33,744 nt of DNA from Tidjanibacter sp. (lineage in GTDB: Bacteria; Bacteroidota; Bacteroidia; Bacteroidales; Rikenellaceae), in the NCBI GenBank assembly GCA_017521965.1, contig JAFXAY010000005.1, forward strand, positions 1 through 33,744, written 5' to 3'. The notes beneath the pieces are model-generated. The model made no database searches, had not been told where the DNA came from, and saw only the letters and a list, made by a program, of their open reading frames with translations. Below, piece after piece: positions 5,725 through 7,503 of the stretch; the first letter of the stretch is position 1; each line of letters opens with the position of its first letter. Position numbers and translations under genes: made by a program.

Positions 5725-6957
5725 ATGAAACAAGCAATTGCAATTTTGACAGGTGGCGGTCCTGCTCCCGGTATGAACACCGTAGTAGGTAGCGTTGCCA
5801 AAACTTTCCTTACCAAAGGTTATCGCGTAATTGGTCTGCACGAGGGTTATACCGGTCTGTTCAAGGCTGAGGCTCGTATGGAGGATATCGACTATCCTCT
5901 GGCTGACGATATCTTCAACCGTGGTGGTTCCTATTTGCAGATGAGCCGTTTCAAACCCACCGACAAAGATTTCGAGGAGAACTTCAACCTCAAATTCTTC
6001 ACCGACAACAACATCAAGTTGCTCGTGACCGTAGGTGGCGATGATACCGCTTCGACTGCTAACCGTATCGCTAAGTTCTTGGAGGCTAAGAAGTATCCTA
6101 TCGCCAATATCCACGTTCCCAAGACTATCGACAACGACCTTCCTCTCCCCGGTGAGACTCCTACCTTCGGTTACGAGTCGGCAAAAGAGGGTGGTGCTGT
6201 TATCGGTCGCGCAGTATATTGCGACGCTCGCACCAGCGGTAACTGGTTCGTTTTGGCTGCAATGGGTCGCTCGGCTGGTCACTTGGCATTCGGTATCGGT
6301 ATGGCTTGCCACTACCCGATGATCGTTATCCCCGAGATGTTCAACAAGACCACCATCACCGTTGACAAAATTGTAAACCTGGTTATCAGCTCGATTATCA
6401 AGCGTAAACTGATGGGTATGGACTACGGTGCTGCTATCGTATCGGAGGGCGTATTCCACGAGCTCAGCGACGAGGAGATCAAGAAGACCGGTGTACACTT
6501 CACCTACGACGATCACGGTCACCCCGAGCTTGGTAAGGTTTCGAAGGCTCACGTATTCAACGATATTTTGGAGCGTCGCCTGAAAGAGATTGGTTTGAAG
6601 GTTAAATCGCGTCCCGTAGAGATTGGCTACGAGGTACGTTGCCAGACCCCCGTTGCTTATGACTTGGAGTACTGCTCGAACCTCGGTATGGGCGTTTACA
6701 AGTTGTATAGCGAGGGTAAGACCGGCTGTATGGTCTATATCGACCACGACGGTAAGGTTGGCCAGCTCTACCTGAAAGAGTTGCAGGATACTACCACCGG
6801 TAAGATTCCTCCCCGTTTGGTTGACGTTAACTCGGACAAGGTTCAGATGGTTGTCAACAACATCCTCTGCTACATCACTCCCGAGGACTACGAGGCTGCA
6901 AAGGCTTACGTTGCTAATCCCGAGGCTTACGACTTCCGCAAGATCTTGGCTTGGTAG
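5725..6957 (+). CDS. pfp: pyrophosphate-dependent 6-phosphofructokinase
   Basis: This 410-residue protein phosphorylates fructose 6-phosphate at C1 in glycolysis. The N-terminal LTGGGPAPGMN motif, GGDDT (104-108), PKTIDND (132-138, with catalytic base D136) and MGR (180-182) are all present. The second Asp in GGDD and the Lys in PKTIDND are the residues that distinguish pyrophosphate-dependent enzymes from ATP enzymes (which have Gly at both sites), so PPi is the predicted phosphoryl donor and the reaction would be reversible. Length fits the group of about 400-residue PPi enzymes. The codon choice is strongly biased, as expected of an abundant protein. A long palindrome and a strong terminator follow. 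The large antisense frame is a shadow. Confidence 0.9.
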   Translation: MKQAIAILTGGGPAPGMNTVVGSVAKTFLTKGYRVIGLHEGYTGLFKAEARMEDIDYPLADDIFNRGGSYLQMSRFKPTDKDFEENFNLKFFTDNNIKLLVTVGGDDTASTANRIAKFLEAKKYPIANIHVPKTIDNDLPLPGETPTFGYESAKEGGAVIGRAVYCDARTSGNWFVLAAMGRSAGHLAFGIGMACHYPMIVIPEMFNKTTITVDKIVNLVISSIIKRKLMGMDYGAAIVSEGVFHELSDEEIKKTGVHFTYDDHGHPELGKVSKAHVFNDILERRLKEIGLKVKSRPVEIGYEVRCQTPVAYDLEYCSNLGMGVYKLYSEGKTGCMVYIDHDGKVGQLYLKELQDTTTGKIPPRLVDVNSDKVQMVVNNILCYITPEDYEAAKAYVANPEAYDFRKILAW

Positions 6958-6967
6958 TGAAGCCGCC

Positions 6968-7069
6968 TAACAAGGTGATTTCTACGTTACGCTCGCCCTC
7001 AAAATCCTCACATACGCCAAGTATGCTGCGGTTTTTCGGGCATCGCAAGCCTTGAAATCCCACTTGTTA
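6968..7069. repeat. long imperfect palindrome (REP- or RNA-like element)
   Basis: This transcribed stretch between the phosphofructokinase stop and its terminator folds on itself over about 100 bases. Outer arms TAACAAGGTGATTTC (6968-6982) and GAAATCCCACTTGTTA (7054-7069) pair with small bulges. Inner segments GCCCTCAAAATCC (6995-7007) and GGTTTTTCGGGC (7030-7041) pair, and the tip is ATAC-GCCAA-GTAT (7012-7024). No reading frame explains it. It could be an interspersed palindromic repeat or a structured 3' untranslated region. Confidence 0.6.
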
Positions 7070-7088
7070 TGCAACTTCATAATAAATA

Positions 7089-7122
7089 GGGGCTGTTCCT
7101 TTCGGGGCAGCTCCTTTTTTTT
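7089..7122 (+). terminator. intrinsic terminator after phosphofructokinase
   Basis: An 11-bp stem (7089-7099 with 7104-7114, including G-T pairs) with a TTTC loop is followed by eight T residues (7115-7122). This is a textbook rho-independent terminator for the plus-strand gene. Confidence 0.85.
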
Positions 7123-7130
7123 ATATAAAA

Positions 7131-7167
7131 TAAGAGAGTGTTACAAAACAAATGCAACACTCTCTTA
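7131..7167 (-). terminator. terminator of the acidic-tail protein gene
   Basis: A perfect 12-bp inverted repeat (7131-7142 with 7156-7167) with a 13-base loop lies just downstream of the minus-strand gene ending at 7195. In the minus direction the stem is followed by a T-rich run; in the plus direction it is followed by AATTTTT, so it may also back up the preceding terminator. Confidence 0.65.
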
Positions 7168-7194
7168 ATTTTTCGGGGAAAGAGGTTTGAGATA

Positions 7195-7503
7195 CTACAT
7201 ATCATCCTCTTCGTCGTCGGTGGGGAGTTCGTCGGCTCCCTTAATTTCATCGTCGTCGTAGTAATCTTTCTCCTCCTCTTCTTCGATTTGGCCATCGATT
7301 TTGACGTCGATTTTCACTAAATAACTTATTTCGTCGGTCTCAAAGGGGACTGCATAGAAGAAGTCACCCGAAGGTTTATCGATGCGAATCATGTGGTCGG
7401 TATAACCATAGGGGTAAAGCTTCTTCACCTCCTCCTGCAACTCGGCAGGGAGGTTCTGGTAACTAACTACCAAACGTTTCTTGTTAATGTTCGTTTTAGC
7501 CAT
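7195..7503 (-). CDS. small protein with highly acidic C-terminal tail
   Basis: The ATG at 7503 (MAKTNINKKRLVVSYQNLP) gives 102 residues; an upstream in-frame start would add 11 poorly conserved-looking residues and span a palindrome. The N-terminal 65 residues form a compact-looking domain with LPAELQEEVKKLYPYGYTDHMIRID, then FFYAVPFETDEISYLVKIDVKID. The last third is almost entirely Asp/Glu (EEEEEKDYYDDDEIKG and further acidic residues). Similar small acidic-tailed proteins are common in Bacteroidales, but I know of no established function. The acidic tail could mediate binding to a basic protein or act as a nucleic-acid mimic; this is speculation. Confidence 0.72.
   Translation of the reverse strand: MAKTNINKKRLVVSYQNLPAELQEEVKKLYPYGYTDHMIRIDKPSGDFFYAVPFETDEISYLVKIDVKIDGQIEEEEEKDYYDDDEIKGADELPTDDEEDDM

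Follow-up and report, generated by a model that had tools for sequence, protein, structure and literature searches.

Integron attC sites are positioned behind genes, and their R boxes follow the consensus RYYYAAC and GTTRRRY. They are described as being used in the form of their bottom strand and recognised by structure (PMC2727003). REP units are described as 20–40 bp long with a GTAG or CGTC tag (PMC3733652), and a REP lying within 15 nt of a stop codon is reported to stall ribosomes in E. coli (PMC12306157). Among candidate structured RNAs of Bacteroidetes, HMP2_4205, HMP2_1032 and HMP2_4078 are presented as palindromes of 106–132 bp, seen on both strands and mostly or wholly in Bacteroidetes (PMC8040213). 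A literature search that included motif strings did not find a description of the family reported here; the HMP2 palindromes (PMC8040213), compared by their published description alone, could be relatives.

Here we analyse a palindrome directly behind a phosphofructokinase (PFK) gene. The family to which it belongs is multi-copy, patchily distributed and turning over between sister genomes, and its copies lie in sense orientation directly behind TAA or TAG stop codons.

A nested palindrome behind a phosphofructokinase gene

The stretch of DNA analysed (the window) comprises 33,744 bases of an assembly of 98 contigs totalling 1.77 Mb. A sequence-only reading of the window had described a nested palindrome at 6968–7069, between the stop codon of a phosphofructokinase gene and its terminator. 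The gene assignment agrees with a Pfam match of the upstream open reading frame (ORF), and the palindrome indeed lies between a TAG stop at 6955–6957 and a terminator hairpin at about 7089–7122. Its ends, however, had been drawn too narrowly: the natural limits are 6958–7080, about 10 bases further on each side, which makes the element 123 bases long. Two models were used to delimit and count copies, a covariance model built from 12 copies (R1) and a model built from 56 sequences (R2). The parts of the locus are as follows.

5725–6957, + strand: ORF of the PFK gene (6-phosphofructokinase-type; Pfam PF00365, 155.5 bits), with the element directly 3' of it
6958–7080, + strand: entire palindromic element, one copy of the family (R1, 118.9 bits at G000:C11:6958-7080)
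6958–6982, + strand: outer 5' arm, made up of stems 1–3, variable in sequence and pairing with 7055–7079
6983–6994, + strand: conserved core block 1, TACGTTACGCTC (family consensus TGCGTTACGCTC)
6995–7004, + strand: 5' inner arm, variable and compensated (helix 2 of the covariation analysis)
7006–7031, + strand: apical hairpin CCTCA-CATAC-loop-GTATG-CTGCGG, with conserved flanks and a covarying stem
7032–7041, + strand: 3' inner arm (from the covariation analysis)
7043–7054, + strand: conserved core block 2, TCGCAAGCCTTG, part of no collection search pattern
7055–7079, + strand: outer 3' arm (from the covariation analysis)
About 7089–7122, + strand: native intrinsic terminator (hairpin and T run, read from the sequence), outside the element

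Model R2 matches this copy at 6951–7075 with 129.2 bits and finds no other in the 33,744 bases, as the sequence-only reading had also noted. Compared with dinucleotide shuffles, the element reaches a z score of -5.2 for the fold of its + strand and of -6.1 for that of its - strand, and none of 200 shuffles folded as well. Identity with an intrinsic terminator was rejected, there being no T run after 7080 and a separate terminator at about 7089–7122. Identity with an Rfam RNA family was also rejected, as the window contains no match at the gathering score (a search extended to E values of up to 5 gave weak matches, all below that score); the elements in nine related loci gave no Rfam match either. 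A second hairpin (7127–7171, AAAATAAGAGAGTGTTACA / TGCAACACTCTCTTAATTT) follows the PFK terminator and probably belongs to a convergent gene ending at 7195.

Copies, turnover and position at stop codons

Searched genome-wide, the element is far from unique, with about 70 copies in the host genome (70 places by R2). BLAST of the element against this genome marks 43 places. The top five have 93–100% identity and four of them, the window among these, are full-length or nearly so; many of the further places match the apical hairpin only. The exact apical motif occurs 31 times in the host genome, compared to 0 for a reversed control. Full copies fall into several subfamilies, which differ in their arms and share a common layout.

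Across genomes the distribution is very patchy. Of 81 genomes in the family, 19 have R1 matches, as do 4 of 10 genomes in the genus, the host's own included in both cases. In the phylum search, 27 of 247 genomes, again including its own, match with an E value no higher than 1e-5, and most of these belong to one other family; in the 81-genome and 247-genome searches, in which at most 44 and 14 candidates per genome were scored, respectively, the count for each genome stands for at least that many copies. R2 finds no copies in two other genomes of the genus. Elsewhere, it marks places in one metagenome-assembled genome (MAG) each of Alistipes (91 places), Fermentibacteria (62), Melainabacteria (54), Thermoanaerobaculia (50) and Pseudobacteriovorax (22), as well as 7 places in Cryomorpha ignava; by the models, then, MAGs from Acidobacteriota, Fermentibacteria, Melainabacteria and Bdellovibrio-like bacteria also carry the multi-copy repeat. 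A strict apical pattern, run across the order, found 3 of 119 genomes and was multi-copy in the host's own genome only; it was judged too narrow on this result, and the models were used instead. A pattern scan of named genomes yielded 114 stretches, with Rikenellaceae predominating, and viral contigs scanned with a skeleton pattern gave no match.

Several features of individual copies were seen along the way. A contig labelled Clostridia bacterium (RGIG5302) bears an element nearly identical to Tidjanibacter copies (L246) and is probably misbinned, and several copies were found at contig ends. Copies may also stand head to tail (14 neighbours within 40 nt, for example L140 and L127). Some full elements (L107, L108, L012, L013, L028) are immediately preceded by a partial duplicate of the 5' arm (AAAAAGCCATCTGG), which looks as if insertion had been repeated or had started twice. 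Tracts of AATTCAAAATTCAAAATTC, probably a separate simple repeat of 3' regions, follow many elements of the host genome (L011, L027, L112, L114).

The sites themselves differ between close relatives. At the PFK site, 4 of 19 same-genus genomes contain the element, with differing interiors, and the site is empty in both sister species with 94% PFK identity. We compared 17 element sites of the host genome, of which 16 could be matched in at least one sister. One sister (G206) has 14 of the sites, 5 filled and 9 empty; the other (G198) has 15, of which 6 are filled, 4 are empty, 4 retain a relic consisting of the 5' arm only and 1 is unreadable. The two sisters disagree with each other at sites L002 and L114. 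Because sister species differ in which sites are filled, empty or relics, we conclude that the element turns over.

At filled sites the element starts at the same stop codon, yet its interior is often that of another subfamily (L031, L016). Three of the 16 compared sites (L021, L043, L117) have an ORF that is 1–3 codons shorter in the host genome than in the sisters, which suggests that insertion can replace the final codons of a gene. In one case (L371, G198:C68) a 5' arm relic is followed by an abrupt switch to unrelated DNA, possibly an assembly chimera.

Position relative to genes was assessed on 151 copies, the de-duplicated R1 matches of at least 100 nt. For 94 of them, a same-strand stop codon of an ORF of at least 80 codons lies within 10 nt of the 5' end or overlaps it, against 4 of 151 on the far (3') side. 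These 94 stops comprise 75 TAA, 19 TAG and no TGA, compared to 93 TAA, 62 TAG and 44 TGA for the element-free ORFs of the same loci. The nominal binomial p of this bias, about 1e-10, is too small because the 94 copies share ancestry, and in family B a leading A run helps to create TAA. No gene family recurs beside the elements across genomes, and the host genes are unrelated. A terminator-like hairpin lies within 100 nt downstream of 40 of 143 copies, compared to 6 of 135 control stretches. In another Bacteroidota family, two copies (L397, L390) directly follow what reads like the 3' end of a tRNA (GGTTCGAATCCCTCCCTCTCCGCCA).

Conserved core, covarying arms and the folded strand

What the family conserves is structure rather than sequence, that is a fixed core within self-complementary arms that change freely. 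Covariation was analysed on an alignment (A4) of the window copy and 55 of 64 non-redundant sequences, with a structure drawn by hand. The non-redundant set derives from stretches L188–L266, excluding L203 and L264 (and also L187) as chance matches or other repeats; the further pattern-scan stretches L267–L300 lie outside it. Standard pairs fill 84.7% of cells, compared to 64.5 ± 0.6 after shuffling, and 32 of 35 pairs are altered on both sides, so that the compensatory changes for which the sequence-only reading had proposed to look are plentiful. Cells changed on both sides number 395, against 126 ± 12 in shuffled alignments and at most 107 in slid controls. Because the rows of A4 are related, the shuffle values are not probabilities; the slid controls retain this relatedness but favour a structure that was derived from those same rows. 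The apical stem illustrates the covariation directly, with the variants CATAC/GTATG, TTTAC/GTAAA and TGTAC/GTACA.

The stems between the conserved blocks thus vary in sequence, and the blocks themselves have to be read with the searches in mind. Since GCGTTACGCTC, CCTCA and CTGCGG formed part of the scan pattern, their conservation stems partly from selection of the sequences. The block CGCAAGCCTTG was outside this pattern, and 51 of 56 rows have it with no more than one mismatch. Copies from other phyla also carry CGCAAGCCTTG, which no search pattern included.

The two strands of the element do not fold equally well. Folding energy is lower for the strand opposite the mRNA in 197 of 201 copies when RNA parameters are used and in 199 of 201 with DNA parameters, the mean difference being 9.4 and 5.8 kcal/mol, respectively. 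The antisense strand is also the better one in 43 of 46 representatives with dissimilar outer arms, and terminator hairpins at the same loci, used as control, have no strand bias (18 versus 14). A.C mismatches outnumber G.T mismatches in the arms by 310 to 78 in 145 copies and by 117 to 34 when only the outer arms are counted, but by only 47 to 24 in the outer arms of the 46 dissimilar representatives; a few conserved mismatches inherited by descent may account for part of the strand bias. The bottom strand is accordingly favoured as the selected form. From the better fold of the strand complementary to the mRNA, we infer that the working form is the bottom strand as single-stranded DNA, although antisense RNA could still be the folded molecule in place of DNA.

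Mobility and relation to known systems

A link to a transposase comes from another Bacteroidota family. In each of four genomes of that family, all single contigs, the ends GGGCACCTCTAAAAA are found 6 to 11 times if up to one mismatch is allowed, and palindromes in these genomes consist of the family core between such ends. Pairs of GGGCACCTCTAAAAA about 1.28 kb apart enclose an IS5-family transposase (NF033581, 275.6 bits for a cut-off of 140). Because the ends of the palindrome equal the terminal repeats of the IS5-family element, the palindrome is a MITE in that Bacteroidota family, and its mobiliser there is probably the IS5-family transposase. One insertion sequence of about 1.28 kb has ends that match the palindromes (L406, G269:C1:816396-817685), and two further IS5-family copies with matching ends, each split between two frames, lie in a single genome (L423 and L428, both G323).

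The family of the window looks different. The IS5-type end GGGCACCTCTA does not occur in the window's genome, and outer arms vary among copies within one genome. Over its outer 16 nt, a copy matches its own opposite arm at 0.82, compared to 0.53 for the arm of a random copy (shifts were allowed in this comparison; the two arm ends are offset by about one base). Terminal repeats of a DDE transposon would not be expected to vary in this way, and fixed terminal repeats do not appear to be what the copies have in common. Target-site duplications had no clear excess in five genomes. Copies of the Thermoanaerobaculia MAG have CTAG at both ends and a long terminal repeat.

Other candidate enzymes were sought by profile. 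Y1 transposase (Y1_Tnp) is absent from the host and from all 12 element-carrying Bacteroidales genomes tested; one element-free genome has one, and 4 of 5 non-Bacteroidales genomes have Y1 genes. No integron integrase exceeds the cut-off in the 12 element-carrying Bacteroidales (best score in the host 78.7 bits, against 265). The only one to do so, at 442.8 bits, is in the Thermoanaerobaculia MAG (G212), and the Fermentibacteria MAG has a truncated integrase; no elements were found beside either locus. The full-length integrase (L351, G212:C248:416-1360) is followed by a gene reading like methionine synthase, with no cassette array in the stretch, in a genome that holds about 50 elements.

On balance, we favour the view that the family consists of mobile palindromes of about 120 bp, dispersed and non-autonomous, with bottom-strand DNA as the probable folded form, which land at TAA or TAG stops. 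The sequence-only reading had left the choice between a mobile repeat and a structured RNA. Had further copies and compensatory changes been lacking, that reading would have fallen, but both are abundant. Patchy distribution, presence and absence between sisters, relics and the IS5-type ends in another family argue for the mobile half of this alternative, as does the number of copies; the half that invokes a sense RNA is weakened by the better fold of the opposite strand in 197 of 201 copies. We hypothesize that the bottom strand would fold as single-stranded DNA, that a recombinase or transposase acting in trans would recognise it in this form and that insertion would use the TA of the stop codon, which would leave the gene and the downstream terminator intact. 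The copy behind the PFK gene is most likely close to neutral; by analogy with REPs, an effect on translation termination is possible.

A function in the message would account for part of the same evidence. If the element were a cis-acting 3' UTR RNA, the sense hairpin at the stop would tune termination or mRNA stability and would spread because it is useful. Stop adjacency in sense orientation (94 of 151) and the strong fold of the sense strand (z -5.2) fit such a role, the element is probably transcribed since the native terminator is still downstream, and stop-proximal E. coli REPs, within 15 nt, are described as stalling ribosomes (PMC12306157). We nevertheless regard it as unlikely, because in 197 of 201 copies the fold of the sense strand is the poorer of the two and A.C is favoured among stem mismatches, presence in sister species is patchy and the host genes are unrelated. 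That the element is simply the transcription terminator of its gene is very improbable: the end of family B does consist of an A-tract, a stem and a T-tract, but the PFK copy lacks a T run and is followed by a separate terminator, and another terminator-like hairpin follows 40 of 143 copies.

The remaining alternatives concern the manner of movement. Were the element an ordinary MITE derived from a DDE insertion sequence, its outer arms would be terminal repeats and its inner palindrome filler, and it would move by cut and paste into a short TA-containing target. The GGGCACCTCTAAAAA ends that bound an IS5-family transposase in four genomes of another Bacteroidota family, and the CTAG and long terminal repeat bounding the Thermoanaerobaculia MAG copies, speak for this rather unlikely reading; against it, arms in the window's family differ within a genome yet stay self-complementary (0.82 for the own arm, 0.53 for a random one), target-site duplications lack a clear excess, and conservation of the core across phyla would be unexpected of filler. 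Stray or degenerate attC sites would share the imperfect bottom-strand hairpin, the variable arms and the sense position behind genes, and the element-rich Thermoanaerobaculia MAG does have an integrase (442.8 bits), as has, in truncated form, the Fermentibacteria MAG. Yet the two R boxes occur together in 1 of 145 copies and in none of 56 sequences, the 12 Bacteroidales carriers have no integrase, and the copies sit behind unrelated genes with none beside either integrase; we hold this origin to be highly improbable, and attC membership was rejected by the R-box and integrase tests. A REP element moved by a RAYT (Y1 transposase) would likewise be dispersed, palindromic and stop-proximal, and Y1 genes exist in 4 of 5 non-Bacteroidales genomes; given that Y1_Tnp is missing from the 12 element-carrying Bacteroidales and present in an element-free genome, and that the unit is 120 nt instead of 20–40, it has almost no claim, and REP/RAYT membership was rejected for the host lineage as far as the assemblies, which are incomplete, reach.

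If the mobile-palindrome reading is right, several phyla would share a mobile DNA family that is recognised by shape, not by end sequence, and that marks the 3' ends of genes. It would offer a natural test bed for the origin of gene-plus-hairpin units such as integron cassettes, and in many gut metagenomes would bear on how 3' UTRs are annotated, how terminators and small RNAs are predicted and how contigs are assembled. A more speculative version, to which we give a low probability, takes the elements as attC-like bottom-strand hairpins of several phyla, dispersed and integrase-independent, that colonise TAA and TAG stops in sense orientation. Were this true, they would form a standing stock of gene-plus-hairpin units, a possible source of integron-style cassettes, and the core could use different vehicles by lineage (IS5-type ends or free arms).

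Among the known systems, REP/BIME elements of the RAYT system are alike in being dispersed, intergenic, palindromic and, as described, often near stop codons (PMC12306157), whereas the present family has a unit of about 120 nt with nested stems and a core shared across phyla, in a host lineage without Y1 transposase; compared by size, it does not fit the 20–40 bp unit of a REP. IS5-family MITEs are alike in one other Bacteroidota family, where the ends equal IS5-family terminal repeats, while the family of the window has unfixed ends and a conserved structured core inside. Integron attC sites are alike in the folded bottom strand, which is here a matter of folding energies alone, and in their unpaired conserved blocks, variable covarying arms and sense position behind genes; the family differs in having no R boxes, no integrase in the host lineage and a dispersed instead of arrayed placement. 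Defining features of both REP (Y1 transposase, unit size) and attC (R boxes, integrase) were tested and are absent from the family in its host lineage. Taken together, these comparisons suggest a family that behaves like a MITE or REP, as a set of dispersed palindromes, and that appears to resemble attC in its strand bias and in conserving structure over sequence.
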